From contig CASFCS010000004.1 in the NCBI GenBank assembly GCA_949293245.1, positions 1 through 64,000 of the forward strand: 64,000 nt of DNA, read 5' to 3'. Below, in pieces: positions 20,257 through 39,832 of the stretch. Source of the DNA: an uncultured bacterium (GTDB taxonomy: Bacteria; Bacillota; Clostridia; Oscillospirales; Oscillospiraceae). The stretch's first letter is position 1. Each line of letters starts with the position of its first letter. A program made the position numbers and the translations under genes. Below the pieces are notes generated by a model that did no database searches, was not told the origin of the DNA, and was given only the letters and a program-made list of their open reading frames with translations.

Positions 20257-20294
20257 GATGCTTGTCTCCTTTCCTATCTCTCGTAGGATTTTTT

Positions 20295-20450
20295 CAGCGG
20301 GGCAGGTCTTCCGGCTCAAGCGTCATCGCTGGGGGCGCGCCTTCCCAGGCCAGGGGCCCAGTGGCATTATGCGCCCGGCTCCTCTCTCACGGTAGCGGGA
20401 CTGCGCGGGAGTTTCACCCGACTTCCCTATTAAGATTGCTCACCTCGCTG
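20295..20450 (-). promoter_or_regulatory. Cobalamin riboswitch between cbiK and cbiM
   Basis: Read leftward the region contains TAGGGAAGTCGGGTGAAA, CGCAGTCCCGC, the B12 box ATGCCACTGGGCC, GGGAAGGCGC, and the closing GAAGACCTGCC, in the class order. A short P1 pairs CAGCG (20450-20446) with CGCTG (20299-20295). No intrinsic terminator follows; a TCCTA/TAGGA stem lies beside the AAAGGAG of cbiM, so control of translation is more likely. It starts about 28 bases after the cbiK stop and no clear promoter is seen, so it appears to act inside a longer transcript. Confidence 0.92.
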
Positions 20451-20478
20451 TGGTATGAGGGCGGACTTTCGTCCGGAC

Positions 20479-32483: not shown

Positions 32484-32537
32484 CGGGTATACCGACAGCG
32501 CAGGCCATGCCCTCTACCTAAGAGCAGGGTCACAAGC

Positions 32538-32701
32538 TTCCGTCCGGCAGGTCTCCTGGCTCGCGGATCATACGCGGGCGCCCCTTCTCGGCTGTAGGCC
32601 AATGGGTCACTGCGCCGTTGTCCCCGTTTACAGTAGAGGTAAGACTGCGCCGGTTTTGACCGGACTTCCCTATTGTGCGGATGGCTCCGCACCGGACGGA
32701 A
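32538..32701 (-). promoter_or_regulatory. Cobalamin riboswitch upstream of cbiD
   Basis: A perfect 10-bp P1 stem pairs 32701-32692 with 32547-32538. Inside, read leftward, are ATAGGGAAGTCCGGTCAAAA, CGGCGCAGTC, a variant B12 box (GACCCATTGGCC), GAAGGGGCGCC and GCCAGGAGACCTGCCGG, the order of the cobalamin class. A terminator hairpin follows before cbiD. It should switch off the whole corrin block when B12 is plentiful. Confidence 0.93.
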
Positions 32702-32726
32702 CTTAATATGGATGAATCGTGCCTCT

Positions 32727-32755: not shown

Positions 32756-33105
32756 TGTAAAAAATCGAGCCTGTGTGCAACTTCTCGGTGGGAGGGCAGA
32801 AGAGGCAGGTCGAAAAATGTCATGTGGGGGCGGAGGGAATGGGCGGAAGGGGGAGAAGAGAGAACAGTGGACAGAATTACACCATCCGCCGGGGAAAGAG
32901 AGAATATAGGGGGAATAATATGTTCTTTCACAAGTGAAATTTATAAAAAGCATTCTGCTTTAAAAAAACGCAAAGTGTGTCGAAAGTGCGGGCAGAGCCA
33001 AAAAAGAGGGCAAGAAGAAAGAGAGAATGAGAGGATTATGGCCAAAGGGGGAAAAATTTTTCAGACGAACCACAGAAAAAAGCCTTCCTGCCTCAAAAAA
33101 ATATC
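32756..33105. other. Gene-free divergent spacer (about 350 bp), purine-rich
   Basis: This stretch separates the leftward cbi promoter from the rightward sensor-kinase promoter. The plus strand is unusually rich in A and G, especially 32780-32910 and 32995-33075, with several short A runs. No hairpin, RNA family or convincing gene was recognised. An open frame crossing it (32675-33109) also crosses part of the riboswitch and both promoter regions and looks spurious. Confidence 0.6.
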
Positions 33106-33133
33106 TTGAGGAAGGGTAATTTTTTGATATAAT
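33106..33133 (+). promoter_or_regulatory. Promoter of the sensor kinase / response regulator / pduQ genes
   Basis: TTGAGG (33106-33111), 16 bp, and TATAAT (33128-33133) with an extended TG at 33125-33126. It lies about 55 bases before the TTG start at 33189. The near-consensus sequence suggests the regulators are made without an activator. Confidence 0.75.
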
Positions 33134-33188: not shown

Positions 33189-34436
33189 TTGGACAACAGT
33201 CGGGAACTGGCCGATCTCATTGACACGGAAAAGCTGCAAAAGCTCCAGGACAATTTTGCCAAGGCGCTGAATCTGGCGTTTATTACGGTGGATTACCGGG
33301 GGCGTCCTATTATTGAGTACAGCGGCTTTACCGAGTTTTGCAACAAGATCCGGGAGCGGGAGGAGTGCAGGAAGCTGTGCTACCAGTGTGATGCCCACGG
33401 CGGCCTTCACGCTACCATCACCGGGGAGCCCTACATTTATCGCTGCCACACCGGGCTGGTGGACTTTGCTGTGCCCCTCATTCTGGATGGGAAATATATG
33501 GGCTCCGTCATGGGGGGCCAGGTGAAGCTGGAGGAGCCCGTCCCTGAGCTGGAGCCTATCCTGCCCCAGACCACCCACTGGCAGGACGACCCGGAGCTGG
33601 CCGACGCGGCCTCCCGGGTCCACCGCATCCGGTACGAGCAGATGGTGGCCGGGGTCTACCTCCTGCGGGATATGATCCAGAGCCTGCTGGAGGAGGAGTA
33701 CCAGAAGGTCACCCAGGCGGAGCTGCGCCGGAAGAGCCAGGAGCTGCTGGAGGAGAAGGCCGCCCGTATCAGCCTGGAGGAGGCCATTGAAGAGGGCGCC
33801 TTCTCCATGCTGGTGGACTATCTGGGCAGCGAGTTTCTTTTTTACATCCTGAACGTGATCGCCCGCCTGGCTTACCGGGAGAAGGCGGAGGAGACCGAAA
33901 AGGCAGTATGCGACTTTGCCAGTATGATGCGCTACCTCACGGAGAACAAAAACAACAGCTTTGTCACCGTGGGGGAGGAGCTGGAATATATTGACTATTA
34001 CCTTCAGATCCAGAAGCGGCGGCTGGAAGGCCGCCTGGCCTACGAGATCAAGGTGCCTGAGGAGTGCAAGGGCATCCTGTGCCCCTTTTTGCTGCTCCAG
34101 CCCCTGGTGGAGAACTCCCTGAAGTACGCTGTAGAGCCCAGCCGGGAGGGGGGCATGCTGGCCATCCGGGGCAAGGCGGAGGGGGGCGCTTTCGTCCTCA
34201 CCATCAGCGACAGCGGCACCGGCATGAGCCGGGAGCAGATCAGCACCATTCTGGAGCTGGAGGAGCGCCACCGGGGGAGCGGCAAGAGCAAGAATTATCT
34301 CACCAATATCAACCGGAAGATCAAGGGCCTCTTCGGCGAGAGCTACGGGGTCTTTATCCGCAGCAAGGAGGACGGATTCCCCGGGACAGAGGTGCAGATC
34401 CGTCTGCCCCTGACCAACGACAGCACCATTATGTAA
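33189..34436 (+). CDS. PocR-domain sensor histidine kinase homologue lacking the phospho-acceptor His
   Basis: 415 aa. Residues about 5-165 form a PocR ligand-binding domain with its Cys-rich block ('CRKLCYQCDAHGG', 'YRCHTGLVDFAVPL'); a coiled coil follows (165-200), then a LytS-type kinase region. Where the family has PHFLFN, this protein reads SEFLFY (214-219), so the phosphorylated His is Glu215. The ATPase parts remain: 'LLLQPLVENSLKYAV' (N box) and 'ISDSGTGM' (G box). Start TTG 33189 is chosen because GGAGG (33176-33180) overlaps an upstream GTG at 33180 and is correctly spaced for TTG. No membrane segment is seen. PocR domains sense small polyols in pdu systems, which fits the downstream operon. 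Confidence 0.85.
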   Translation: MDNSRELADLIDTEKLQKLQDNFAKALNLAFITVDYRGRPIIEYSGFTEFCNKIREREECRKLCYQCDAHGGLHATITGEPYIYRCHTGLVDFAVPLILDGKYMGSVMGGQVKLEEPVPELEPILPQTTHWQDDPELADAASRVHRIRYEQMVAGVYLLRDMIQSLLEEEYQKVTQAELRRKSQELLEEKAARISLEEAIEEGAFSMLVDYLGSEFLFYILNVIARLAYREKAEETEKAVCDFASMMRYLTENKNNSFVTVGEELEYIDYYLQIQKRRLEGRLAYEIKVPEECKGILCPFLLLQPLVENSLKYAVEPSREGGMLAIRGKAEGGAFVLTISDSGTGMSREQISTILELEERHRGSGKSKNYLTNINRKIKGLFGESYGVFIRSKEDGFPGTEVQIRLPLTNDSTIM

Positions 34437-34488: not shown

Positions 34489-35565
34489 ATGTTTCAGGTT
34501 CTGGTAGTGGACAGCGGCGCCATCGACCGCGAGATGATGAAAAGCGTCCTGCACAAGGGACTGGACGGGCCGGTGGAGATCTATCTGGCCGGCGGGATCG
34601 AGGAGGCCAGGACGATCCTGGAGGAGACGGGCATCGACCTGATGATCGCGGATGTGCCCCTGAGCACGGCATATGTGAAAAACCTGGTGCGTACCGCCTG
34701 CGGTATCCACCAGAATATTGATGTGATCCTCACCACAGTAAAGCGCGAGGGGGAGATCGCCCAGCTGAGCAACATGCTGGGGGCCACCGGATACCTCCTC
34801 AAGCCCTTCCGGCGGGAGACCCTGCTGGATATGGTCCGCCCTCTGGAGACCCGCGCCCGGGCGGCGGAGGCCCAGGCGGGAGAGGCCGAGCAGCTGGCCT
34901 GTCTGGAGCGCATCGCCGCCAGCGTGCAGGACTGCCAATACAAAAAAACCATTGAGACGGCAAAAGAGTACATTGATTTCCTCTACCGCTCCGGGGATAA
35001 TATGAGTGTTATCAGAATGCGTGTGGTAGAGTTTGCCGCCAGCCTGGCGGCGGTGGGCGCCAGCCAGAGCCAGGAGGTCCAGCAGAAGCTCGCGGCCACC
35101 CTGGAGCGCTTCCGCTCCCGCTACGACCTGCAGAGCAACAGCTTCGAGGCCACCTCCATCATCGAGGAGATGCTGGACGCCATTTTCGCCGAGCTGGAGC
35201 GCTGCCAGCTCTACTCCGACGACGATTTGAAAAAAGTACTCAATTTCATTGACCGCAACATCAAAAAGGGAGTTACCCTGGACGACGCGGCGGAATATGT
35301 GAATATGAGCTCCAGCTATTTCAGCAAGTTTTTCAAGAAATCCATGGGCATCAACTTTATTACTTATGTGACTGACCGTAAGATCGAGTTTGCCAAGGAT
35401 ATGCTGGAAAATACAGATATGCCGGTCATCAACATAGCCTATGAGCTGTCTTACAACGAGACCAACTACTTCAGTAAGGCATTTAAAAAGAAAGTGGGCA
35501 TGACGCCCACGGAGTACCGGGAACAGTGCCTGGCCAGAAAGGGGCTCAAAGCAGCGGGGGCATAA
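34489..35565 (+). CDS. Response regulator with AraC-type DNA-binding domain
   Basis: 358 aa. The receiver domain (1-120) has the phospho-Asp candidate D55 in 'LMIADVP', T82 and K105 ('LLKPF'), but the usual acidic pair is D8 followed by Ser9. A helical linker (125-250) leads to an AraC HTH (about 255-350; 'VTLDDAAEYVNMSSSYFSKFFKKSMGINFITYVTDRKI', 'VINIAYELSYNETNYFSKAFKKKVGMTPTEYR'). It is co-transcribed with the PocR kinase and pduQ and is the obvious activator of the microcompartment operon, whose promoter has a poor -35. Confidence 0.88.
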   Translation: MFQVLVVDSGAIDREMMKSVLHKGLDGPVEIYLAGGIEEARTILEETGIDLMIADVPLSTAYVKNLVRTACGIHQNIDVILTTVKREGEIAQLSNMLGATGYLLKPFRRETLLDMVRPLETRARAAEAQAGEAEQLACLERIAASVQDCQYKKTIETAKEYIDFLYRSGDNMSVIRMRVVEFAASLAAVGASQSQEVQQKLAATLERFRSRYDLQSNSFEATSIIEEMLDAIFAELERCQLYSDDDLKKVLNFIDRNIKKGVTLDDAAEYVNMSSSYFSKFFKKSMGINFITYVTDRKIEFAKDMLENTDMPVINIAYELSYNETNYFSKAFKKKVGMTPTEYREQCLARKGLKAAGA

Positions 35566-35597: not shown

Positions 35598-36740
35598 ATG
35601 AAGGAATTTAGTTTCAGTACCCGGATCTTTTTTGGCGAGGGCGCGCTGGAGCGCCTGCGGAAGGTGAGCGGGAAGCGTGTACTCATCGTGACGGACAAGT
35701 TTATGTACCAGTCCGGCGTGGCCGACCGGGTCGCTTCCCATCTCACCGACTGTGAGGTCACTGTTTTCCCCGACGTGGTGCCCGATCCCCCCATTGAGAC
35801 CGTGGCCGCCGGGGTCAAGGTGCTCCAGGAGTGCCGGGCCCAGGTGATGGTGGCGGTGGGGGGCGGTTCCTCCATTGACGCGGCCAAGGCCATCCGGGCT
35901 CTGGGGGACCAGCTGGCTGATCAGGACACCCAGATCATGGAGTGCTTTGCCATCCCCACCACCAGCGGCACCGGTTCCGAGGTGACTGAGTACGCGGTGA
36001 TTACCGACGTCCACAAGGGCGTCAAATATCCCCTGGCCAGCCGGGGCCTGCGGCCCCCCACGGCCATTCTGGACCCGGAGCTGGTGGTGTCCGCCCCACC
36101 CAGCGTCACCGCCGACAGCGGCATGGACGTGCTCACCCACGCCCTGGAGGCCTATGTCTCCGCCAATGCCAGCGATTTTTCCGACGCCCTGGCGGAAAAG
36201 GCAGTGAGTCTGGTGTTCCGCTGGCTGCCCGTCGCCTTTAAGGACGGTTCCGACCTGCTGGCCCGGGAGAAGATGCACAACGCCTCCTGCATGGCCGGCC
36301 TGGCCTTCAATTCCGCCGGCCTGGGTATGTGCCACGGCATGGCCCACGCCATCGGCGGCAAGCTCCACCTGCCCCACGGGCGGGCCAACGCCATCGTGCT
36401 GCCCCATGTGCTCCGCTTCAACGCCCAGCTGGAGACCAGCCGGATGAAAAACGGCTACACCCTGCCGGCCCGGAAGTACCAGCGCATGGCAAAGCTGCTG
36501 GATCTGCCCTGCTCCAGCGTGGTGGTGGGGGTGAGCCAGCTGGTGCGGGGGGTGGAGGCCCTCAACCGCACCCTGAAGATCCCCGCCAATCTGCGCACCG
36601 CCAACTGTGATATGGAGGTGTTCCGGGCGGAGCGGGCCAACATTCTGGCCGCCGCCCTGGCCGATCCCACCACCGCGGCCAACCCCCGCACCCCCACCCG
36701 GGAGGAGATGAATCAGCTCCTCTCCGACGTGGCGGGCTGA
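35598..36740 (+). CDS. pduQ: Iron-type alcohol dehydrogenase, propanol dehydrogenase PduQ
   Basis: 380 aa group III alcohol dehydrogenase reducing propionaldehyde to 1-propanol with NADH regeneration. NAD-binding 'VGGGSSIDAAKAI', 'PTTSGTGSEVTEYAVI', and the iron ligands in 'DSGMDVLTHALEAYVS' and 'CHGMAHAIGGKLHLPHGRANAIVLPHV' are visible. It lies in the regulator transcript, before a strong terminator, rather than inside the main shell operon. Confidence 0.9.
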   Translation: MKEFSFSTRIFFGEGALERLRKVSGKRVLIVTDKFMYQSGVADRVASHLTDCEVTVFPDVVPDPPIETVAAGVKVLQECRAQVMVAVGGGSSIDAAKAIRALGDQLADQDTQIMECFAIPTTSGTGSEVTEYAVITDVHKGVKYPLASRGLRPPTAILDPELVVSAPPSVTADSGMDVLTHALEAYVSANASDFSDALAEKAVSLVFRWLPVAFKDGSDLLAREKMHNASCMAGLAFNSAGLGMCHGMAHAIGGKLHLPHGRANAIVLPHVLRFNAQLETSRMKNGYTLPARKYQRMAKLLDLPCSSVVVGVSQLVRGVEALNRTLKIPANLRTANCDMEVFRAERANILAAALADPTTAANPRTPTREEMNQLLSDVAG

Positions 36741-36777
36741 TAAATCTAGTTGCCTTCTGTTTTCTCCATACTTCAGG

Positions 36778-36824
36778 AGTGATGGGGCTGTCCCGGCGGG
36801 ACAGCCCCATCACTCTTGTTTTTT
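36778..36824 (+). terminator. Terminator after pduQ
   Basis: A 17-bp perfect stem (36778-36794 with 36798-36814) with a 3-base loop is followed by CTTGTTTTTT. It isolates the regulator/pduQ transcript from the pduA operon. Confidence 0.92.
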
Positions 36825-36855
36825 GCACAATAGGTCAAAAAATGACGGTAACTTT

Positions 36856-36909
36856 TTTGGGCAGAATGGGTGAAAAAGCGGGACAAACAATCCCCTCCCT
36901 TTGGGGCAG
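36856..36909 (+). repeat. Direct repeat upstream of pduA, candidate regulator sites
   Basis: TTTGGGCAG (36856-36864) and TTTGGGGCAG (36900-36909) are each followed after a short gap by GAAAAA. They are 44 bp apart, close to four helical turns, and lie 50-100 bp upstream of the pduA -10. They are plausible sites for the AraC-type response regulator. Confidence 0.4.
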
Positions 36910-36955
36910 TCCGAAAAATACAGTAAGGTGGCAAGAAAGTCTGCGCCGGGCACGG

Positions 36956-36961
36956 TATAAT
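36956..36961 (+). promoter_or_regulatory. -10 element of the pdu operon
   Basis: A perfect TATAAT lies 63 bases before the pduA start. The region 16-18 bases upstream has no recognisable TTGACA (it reads AAGAAA), as expected for an activator-dependent promoter. Confidence 0.6.
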
Positions 36962-37023: not shown

Positions 37024-37302
37024 ATGCAGAAAGAAGCACTGGGCATGATCGAGACCCGGGGACTCGTAGGCGCCATCGAGGCTGCCGATGCCATGACCAA
37101 GTCTGCCAACGTGGTGCTGATCGGCTATGAGAAGATCGGCTCCGGTCTGGTGACCGTTATGGTGCGCGGCGACGTTGGCGCTGTCAAGGCCGCTGTGGAT
37201 GCCGGCGCCTGCGCCGCCGAGAAGGTGGGCGAGGTCGTCTCCCAGCACGTGATCCCCCGCCCCCACAGTGATGTGGAGAAGATCCTCCCCCAGCAGGTCT
37301 GA
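37024..37302 (+). CDS. pduA: Microcompartment hexamer shell protein (PduA type)
   Basis: Single BMC domain (92 aa). '[25 protein letters not shown]', the pore loop '[27 protein letters not shown]' and '[14 protein letters not shown]' are textbook BMC-H; the KIGSG loop lines the pore that passes the diol substrate in PduA. AGGAGG precedes ATG 37024. It is the first gene of a 17-kb operon and is over 90% identical in protein sequence to the gene at 43801. Confidence 0.97.
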
Positions 37303-38170: not shown

Positions 38171-39832
38171 ATGAAGTCGAAACGTTTTGAAGTCCTGGCC
38201 GCCCGCCCGGTCAACCAGGACGGCTACGTAAAGGAGTGGCCTGAGGTCGGTCTGATCGCCATGAACAGCCCCTTCGATCCTGTGCCCAGCATCAAGATCG
38301 AGAACGGCCGCGTTGTGGAGCTGGACGGCAAGACCCGTGACCAGTTCGACATGCTGGACACCTTCATCGCCGATCACGCCATCCGTCTGGCCGGCGCCGA
38401 GAAGGCCATGGCCATGGACTCCCTGGAGATCGCCCGCATGATCGTGGACATCAACGTCTCCCGCAAGGAAGTTCTGGACATCACCCTGTGCCTCACTCCC
38501 GCCAAGCTGACCGAGGTGGTGGGCAAGCTGAGCATCGTGGAGATCATGATGGGCCTGACCAAGATGCGCGCCCGTATGATGCCCGCCAACCAGTGCCATG
38601 TCACCAACGTGAAGGACAACCCCATCCAGATCGCCGCCGACGCCGCCGAGGCTGCCATCCGTGGCTTTGCTGAGATGGAGACCACCGTGGGCGTGGCCCG
38701 CTACGCTCCCTTCAACGCCATGGCCCTGTTCGTGGGCGCCCAGGTGGGCCGGGCCGGCATCATGACCCAGTGCGCTCTGGAAGAGGCCACTGAGCTGATG
38801 CTCGGTATGCGCGGCTTCACCACCTATGCCGAGACCATCTCCGTCTACGGCACCGAGCCCGTGTTCATGGACGGCGACGACACCCCCTACTCCAAGGCGT
38901 TCCTGGCCTCCTGCTACGCCTCCCGCGGCCTGAAGATGCGCTTCACCTCCGGCACCGGTTCCGAGGTCCAGATGGGCTATGCCGAGGGCAAGTCCATGCT
39001 GTACCTGGAGGCCCGCTGCCTGGCCGTCACCAAGGGCGCCGGCGTGCAGGGCACCCAGAACGGCTCCGTGTCTTGTATCGGCGTGCCCGCCGGCGTGCCC
39101 GGTGGTATCCGTGCCGTGGCCGCTGAGAACCTCATCGCCATGCTGCTGGACCTGGAGTGCACCTCCTCCAACGACCAGACCTTCACCCACTCCGATCTGC
39201 GCCGTGTGGCCCGCAGCGTGCCTCAGTTCTTCTCCGGCACCGACTACATCTGCTCCGGCTACTCCGCTACCCCCAACTACGACAACATGTTCGCCGGCTC
39301 CAACTGGGACGCCGAGGACTACGACGACTGGAACATCATCCAGCGCGACATGCGCGTGGACGGCGGCCTGAACCCCGTGCGGGAAGAGGACGTCATCAAG
39401 GCCCGCAACAAGGCTGCCCGCGCGCTCCAGGGTATGTTCCGCGAGCTGGGCCTGCCCGAGATCACCGACGCCGAGGTGGAGGCTGCCACCTACGCCAACG
39501 GCTCTCAGGATATGCCCGACCGCAACGTCAACGAGGATCTGAAGGCCATTGAGGAGATGATGGCCCGCAAGGTCACCGGCGTGGACTTCGTGAAGGCTCT
39601 GGACAAGGCCGGCTTCCCCGACGTGGCCCAGAACGTGTACAACATGCTCCGCCAGAAGGTGGCCGGTGACTACCTGCACACCGCCTCCATCTTTGACGAC
39701 AACTTCCACGTCCTGAGCGCCGTGAACGTCCCCAACGACTATCATGGACCTATGACCGGCTACCAGATCAGCGAGGAGAGATGGGAGCAGCTGAAGAACA
39801 TCCCCAACGCGATCAGTCCGGAAGACATCTAA
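38171..39832 (+). CDS. pduC: Propanediol/glycerol dehydratase large subunit
   Basis: B12-dependent diol dehydratase alpha subunit (553 aa, the family length). Adenosylcobalamin radical chemistry turns 1,2-propanediol into propionaldehyde. The start 'KSKRFEVLAARPVNQDGYVKEWPEVGLIAM' and the blocks 'MMPANQCHVTNVKDNPIQIAADAAEAA', 'FTSGTGSEVQMGYAEGKSMLYLEARC' and 'GVQGTQNGSVSC' identify it. Sequence alone does not separate propanediol from glycerol preference; the neighbours favour propanediol. Confidence 0.97.
   Translation: MKSKRFEVLAARPVNQDGYVKEWPEVGLIAMNSPFDPVPSIKIENGRVVELDGKTRDQFDMLDTFIADHAIRLAGAEKAMAMDSLEIARMIVDINVSRKEVLDITLCLTPAKLTEVVGKLSIVEIMMGLTKMRARMMPANQCHVTNVKDNPIQIAADAAEAAIRGFAEMETTVGVARYAPFNAMALFVGAQVGRAGIMTQCALEEATELMLGMRGFTTYAETISVYGTEPVFMDGDDTPYSKAFLASCYASRGLKMRFTSGTGSEVQMGYAEGKSMLYLEARCLAVTKGAGVQGTQNGSVSCIGVPAGVPGGIRAVAAENLIAMLLDLECTSSNDQTFTHSDLRRVARSVPQFFSGTDYICSGYSATPNYDNMFAGSNWDAEDYDDWNIIQRDMRVDGGLNPVREEDVIKARNKAARALQGMFRELGLPEITDAEVEAATYANGSQDMPDRNVNEDLKAIEEMMARKVTGVDFVKALDKAGFPDVAQNVYNMLRQKVAGDYLHTASIFDDNFHVLSAVNVPNDYHGPMTGYQISEERWEQLKNIPNAISPEDI

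Follow-up and report, generated by a model that had tools for sequence, protein, structure and literature searches.

In Salmonella, the PocR protein carries on one polypeptide both a PocR ligand domain and the AraC-type DNA-binding domain that it controls at the pdu locus. A second arrangement makes use of a sensor kinase. Two-component systems with PocR-domain kinases were noted at PDU1D loci in 2014 (PMC4207490), and in Acetobacterium woodii a two-component system (Awo_c25930/Awo_c25920) precedes the pdu cluster, its regulator binding promoter fragments of pduA as well as of the kinase gene (PMC7593272).

Pseudo-histidine kinases and pseudo-receivers are already known, each separately. In Azotobacter, the kinase-like sensor NifL controls the transcription activator NifA by direct binding without phosphotransfer. 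A pseudo-histidine kinase is a histidine kinase fold that lacks at least one of the kinase functions and still operates within a two-component network, and the phospho-accepting His is missing in fewer than 1% of HisKA domains (PMC12632262). The Caulobacter pseudo-histidine kinase DivL, whose kinase fold has no functional His phosphorylation, serves as an interaction module (PMC4211667). Only two of 20 characterised atypical response regulators are not orphans, and the 2025 review that counts them calls the on/off switching of pseudo-receivers a mystery (PMC12632262).

The DNA analysed here, 64,000 nucleotides from an uncultured member of the Oscillospiraceae (the window), carries a PocR sensor kinase and an AraC-type regulator at a pdu cluster, where PDU1D loci have a PocR-domain kinase and A. 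woodii has a two-component pair. In contrast to Salmonella PocR, the ligand and DNA-binding domains lie on two proteins linked by kinase and receiver modules, and the NCBIfam PocR model is matched in two halves, one on the kinase and the other on the regulator. Direct contact is probably the means by which the sensor controls its partner, because both have lost their phosphate-passing sites throughout the clade to which they belong. A former LytS/YesM-AraC two-component system would thus have become a phosphorylation-independent pair of PocR pseudokinase and pseudo-receiver. Among the open-access papers searched there was no report of a PocR kinase without the His, nor of a pseudokinase and its cognate pseudo-receiver both being degenerate across a lineage.

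Relatives were collected from GTDB species genomes via the kinase; a search of the genus yielded the source genome only. The clade comprises 34 PocR kinases without the motif NPHFLFN, from Oscillospiraceae (including Flavonifractor plautii and Pseudoflavonifractor phocaeensis), Lachnospiraceae, Eubacterium-named genomes and Anaerovorax, with 33 readable partner regulators; 17 His-bearing PocR kinases of the same architecture and their 17 partners form the comparison set and outgroup. In nearly all clade loci of the sample that have flanking sequence, the pair adjoins pdu microcompartment genes in the order pair, alcohol dehydrogenase, pdu shell and diol dehydratase genes (Table 1). In the window it lies between divergent cobalamin-synthesis genes on the minus strand and the pdu genes, a position similar to that of pocR in Salmonella. 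Two cobalamin riboswitches (Rfam RF00174) are found on the minus strand at 32529-32711 (100 bits) and 20284-20462 (94 bits), the former between the cobalamin-synthesis genes and the kinase gene. The alcohol dehydrogenase gene is separated from the pduA promoter by a likely terminator, a strong GC-rich inverted repeat at 36777-36825 (AGTGATGGGGCTGTCCCG / CGGGACAGCCCCATCACT, then TCTTGTTTTTT).

Table 1. Features of the kinase-regulator locus and the adjoining pdu genes (window positions)
Feature	Position	Strand	Evidence and remarks
Candidate kinase-gene promoter, inverted half-sites	33094..33133	+	CAAAAAAA-N17-ATTTTTTG-A-TATAAT
Predicted PocR pseudo-histidine kinase, 415 aa	33189..34436	+	TTG start behind GGAGGTGAT; Pfam PocR PF10114 (E 2e-49), His_kinase PF06580 (5e-15), HATPase_c PF02518 (1e-7), all over cut-off
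PocR ligand-sensing domain, residues 9-171	33213..33701	+	Pfam; most conserved part of kinase
Degenerate motif SEFLFY (canonical PHFLFN)	33828..33845	+	E215 at 33831-33833, Y219 at 33843-33845
N box QPLVENSLKYA	34098..34130	+	N309 kept here; lost in 30/34 clade kinases
G1 box TISDSGTGMS	34203..34232	+	D341, G343, G345 kept here
AraC-type atypical response regulator, 358 aa	34489..35565	+	Response_reg 3e-9, HTH_18 8e-22
Broken acidic pair of receiver	34510..34515	+	D8 (DD1) kept, DD2 is S9
Phosphorylatable D55	34651..34653	+	Kept in 32/33 clade partners; Asn in Anaerovorax L018
Conserved Thr, T83, and bulky T+1 residue, V84	34735..34740	+	T+1 is Ala in 17/17 canonical partners
K105	34801..34803	+	Kept in 33/33 clade partners
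AraC-type HTH_18 DNA-binding domain, residues 268-346	35290..35526	+	Pfam; lowest dN/dS in most pairs
Iron-type alcohol dehydrogenase (PduQ-like)	35598..36740	+	Next gene 3' of regulator; 64-85% identical beside clade pairs with flanking sequence
Candidate activator-type promoter, shell/pdu operon	36909..36961	+	GTCCGAAAAATA-N11-CAAGAAA-N17-TATAAT
BMC shell protein (PduA-like)	37024..37302	+	Preceded by the promoter at 36909-36961
Diol dehydratase large subunit (PduC-like)	38171..39832	+	91-94% identical in clade loci; 78% in L018

The kinase has the Pfam domains and the predicted fold of the LytS/YesM class, with the phospho-accepting His absent. It is the only PF06580 match in the source genome. 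The NPHFLFN of the LytS type reads GSEFLFY in the window, and E215 (codon GAG) aligns with the phospho-accepting His of the solved GanS kinase (6swj) and of the 17 His-bearing relatives, in agreement with the initial annotation, which had read a Glu in place of the His. What is conserved is the loss of the motif, not the Glu: NPHFLFN is absent from 34 of 34 clade kinases and present in 17 of 17 close His-bearing relatives, and the His column holds Arg in 17 clade kinases, Asp in 10, Ser in two, His in two, Cys in one and a few other residues including the Glu of the window. A sequencing error or recent mutation at E215 is ruled out, as the motif loss is common to the relatives and the nearest of these (61% identity) have Asp. 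A phosphomimetic role of Glu215 is also unlikely, because the column varies over the clade (Arg, Asp, Ser, Cys, Glu) and the conserved trait is the motif loss. The two clade kinases with His at the aligned column (L023, from Flavonifractor plautii, and L032) have it in the context L-H-Y-F-F-F, possibly through a single-base Arg-to-His change, and neither retains the Asn of the N box or the Asp of G1. The earlier suggestion that the kinase may not autophosphorylate thus gains support from a whole clade without the motif.

The ATP-binding N and G boxes, annotated as kept, are so in part: N309 and D341-x-G343 are present, but the G2 glycine is Tyr370 (34296-34298), and Gly is found at this column in none of the 34 clade kinases. 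Only four of the 34 keep the N-box Asn and only four the G1 Asp, and both boxes are retained in the window kinase and two relatives. Since its N box and G1 are kept, the window kinase may bind nucleotide. By its residues it shows an intermediate stage, with the His and the G2 glycine gone and the N box and G1 still in place, most relatives having lost those too. It fits the pseudo-histidine kinase as described in the review, its missing function being predicted from these residues (PMC12632262).

The partner has decayed as well. Its receiver is the weakest of the 28 receiver matches in the source genome. The earlier reading that it keeps D55, T82 and K105 stands for the Asp and the Lys, whereas the conserved Thr is T83; the broken acidic pair D8-S9, the Val at position 84 and the loss of the D+4 Pro and D+8 Gly of the receiver loop had gone unremarked. 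In receivers the second acidic residue of the pair binds the metal directly, and because this residue is Ser here the regulator is classed as a pseudo-receiver by the definition in the review (PMC12632262). Two acidic residues at the metal-binding pair are found in none of the 33 clade partners, against all 17 partners of His-bearing kinases; the clade has NE in 19, SD in seven, DS in three and otherwise DN, IE, SE and NA. The Val at T+1 is shared with BldM, in which this branched residue may hinder phosphorylation (PMC12632262). Judged on residues alone, phosphotransfer from the kinase to the regulator has very probably been lost.

The chief rival to direct contact is phosphorylation by another route, because D55, Thr or Ser at position 83 and the Lys persist. 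The regulator could still receive phosphate from acetyl phosphate or a distant histidine kinase, while the pseudokinase would only modulate it, sequestering it or shielding and exposing D55. Thr or Ser is kept in 33 of 33 clade partners, as is Y102, and DD2 is still acidic in 28 of the 33; with these residues, D55 and K105 in place, a small-molecule donor or another kinase may still phosphorylate the regulator. Other kinases exist in the source genome, as indicated by its 28 receiver and about 30 HATPase_c matches over cut-off. Against this, the metal-binding pair is intact in no clade partner and the direct metal ligand is Ser in the window regulator, T+1 is Val, and the D+4/D+8 loop is altered. 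No second PF06580 kinase occurs in the genome, and the Anaerovorax partner has dispensed with the phosphorylatable Asp. The loss of the metal pair and the lack of another PF06580 kinase likewise weaken the earlier proposal of phosphorylation by another kinase, and we regard this rival as unlikely.

Both losses share one origin. A first combined tree had long outgroup branches, which were omitted from separate kinase and regulator trees. With the motif columns omitted, the degenerate kinases form one clade (bootstrap 100), as do the 33 partners in the regulator tree (bootstrap 100), and the His-bearing L019 and L026 are the sister pair in both. Each tree requires one change, so the joint loss is a single shared event and, not being a set of replicates, allows no statistical claim. 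The deepest clade member, from Anaerovorax sp. IOR16 (L018:11282-12328), has Asn at the phosphorylatable Asp of its regulator and Ser at the His column of its kinase.

The family has apparently lost the phospho-accepting His a second time, independently: another clade of PocR kinases (L009, L058 and L100; wider regions L114:8382-9689, L112:7560-8942 and L113:8343-9692) lacks it too and sits at other loci of microcompartment type, which carry aldehyde and alcohol dehydrogenases. As the receivers of this clade keep all five residues, loss of the His need not be accompanied by receiver decay.

Despite the loss of the catalytic residues, both proteins are under purifying selection. Wherever it could be measured for a kinase or regulator domain within the clade, dN/dS stays below 0.45 and is mostly 0.02-0.15; the AraC and PocR domains usually have the lowest values, and in most close pairs the ratio is lower in the DHp region than in the catalytic domain. 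Single-chain AlphaFold models are confident, with a mean pLDDT of 87.6 for the kinase and 90.8 for the regulator. The kinase model matches GanS 6swj (Z 22, rmsd 3.4, 203 residues), with 9qq6 (the NifL-NifA complex) and 4q20 (DivL) also among its fold matches, and the receiver model matches Spo0F-like receivers (Z 18). Because dN/dS is well below 1 and the confident models match known folds, the kinase and receiver scaffolds are predicted to have outlasted their chemistry. In the PocR domain C51, C64, C86 and D68 are invariant in 50 of 50 kinases. Within residues 51-87 (window 33339-33449), C51, C64, C67, C86, H70 and H87 are kept in all 34 clade kinases, a Cys/His set that might serve to bind metal or ligand.

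The pduA promoter is conserved too. In 29 clade loci (all those listed except L018) the pattern GACAAAAAAG(T/C)A-N11-CAAGAAA-N17/18-TATAAT precedes the pduA-like gene with 0-2 mismatches; these counts describe conservation, since the pattern was derived from the same loci. The window copy is the most divergent, and only its comparison with shuffled sequence is a test: it has four mismatches against a best of seven in 200 shuffles. In the His-bearing relatives and L018, nothing better than five mismatches was found. The two candidate half-sites are in direct orientation, 21 bp apart, and the second occupies the position of the -35 box, an arrangement typical of AraC-type activator sites. The kinase promoter has two mismatches to the clade pattern against a best of four in 300 shuffles. 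Through this candidate site the regulator probably autoregulates, graded no higher than probable because several Flavonifractor members have a weak copy of the pattern or none.

A kinase that is merely vestigial would leave the pseudo-receiver regulator constitutively active, controlled by its own expression or by other signals. The loss of ATP-binding residues in most clade kinases and the probable autoregulatory site would suit this reading. However, a useless sensor would decay, and here selection is purifying on the PocR domain as well as on the DHp region, and about 60 positions of the PocR domain are conserved at 90% or more across the clade. The kinase gene also stays next to the regulator across the clade as sampled, although the sample was drawn by kinase, so that regulators without a kinase gene would be missed and regulator-only clades are invisible. 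A vestigial kinase is therefore quite improbable.

The remaining alternatives keep some phosphate chemistry in the kinase. A ligand-gated phosphatase of the regulator, as the initial annotation had proposed, draws on the finding that the phospho-accepting His is dispensable for phosphatase activity in some kinases (PMC12632262). Asn219, four residues beyond the His in the canonical motif, is replaced by Tyr, Phe or Ser in 34 of 34 clade kinases. This Asn matches by position the phosphatase Thr/Asn of HisKA kinases. With Mg binding by the receiver compromised, leaving it crippled as a phosphoprotein, and no known donor to oppose, a phosphatase is very improbable. Phosphorylation at another residue, be it at a different His or as an acyl phosphate on E215/D215, is hardly credible: the N box and G1 are kept in the window kinase and two relatives and an acidic residue occupies the His column in about a third of the clade, but Arg is the commonest residue there, 30 of 34 are without the N-box Asn, and no conserved His was found outside the PocR domain among the 34 clade kinases, an outcome that also bears on the earlier caution about another His of this protein.

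Direct binding is thus favoured by the residues among the options raised at the outset, and the proposed switch without His-Asp transfer is strengthened by the motif loss across the clade and by the degenerate receiver of the partner. By analogy, the PocR domain would sense the substrate, 1,2-propanediol. The DHp helices and the degenerate catalytic domain would act as a scaffold that changes shape on ligand binding, without phosphorylation, and so controls the AraC-type pseudo-receiver regulator by protein contact. The regulator would bind the two direct half-sites at the pduA promoter and activate the microcompartment operon, and it would act at its own promoter as well. We infer the contact step from co-inheritance, co-degeneration and selection as read from sequence, and we also infer the identity of the ligand, the binding of the regulator to the half-sites and the direction of control.

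Contact control of this kind would have an analogue in NifL-NifA. Unlike the window partner, a degenerate receiver protein, NifA is a GAF-AAA+ protein and not a response regulator. DivL acts on a canonical phosphorelay, whereas the window pair has no canonical partner in its locus. In contrast to the pseudo-receivers BldM, NblR, CmrT and FrzS, every pseudo-receiver of the clade has a cognate pseudokinase gene adjoining its own. The His-bearing relatives differ from the window clade in keeping NPHFLFN, the ATP site and the five receiver residues and in lacking the clade promoter motif.

It is somewhat more probable than its opposite that these pairs form a conserved class of pseudo-two-component systems, in which phosphotransfer has been lost jointly and ligand-driven contact alone controls an organelle in gut Oscillospiraceae and Lachnospiraceae. 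Here a pseudo-receiver comes with a pseudokinase of its own, a ligand is likely and the promoter defined, and hosts are in culture, namely Flavonifractor plautii and Pseudoflavonifractor phocaeensis. The pair allows a direct test of whether contact alone suffices for signalling through two-component scaffolds.
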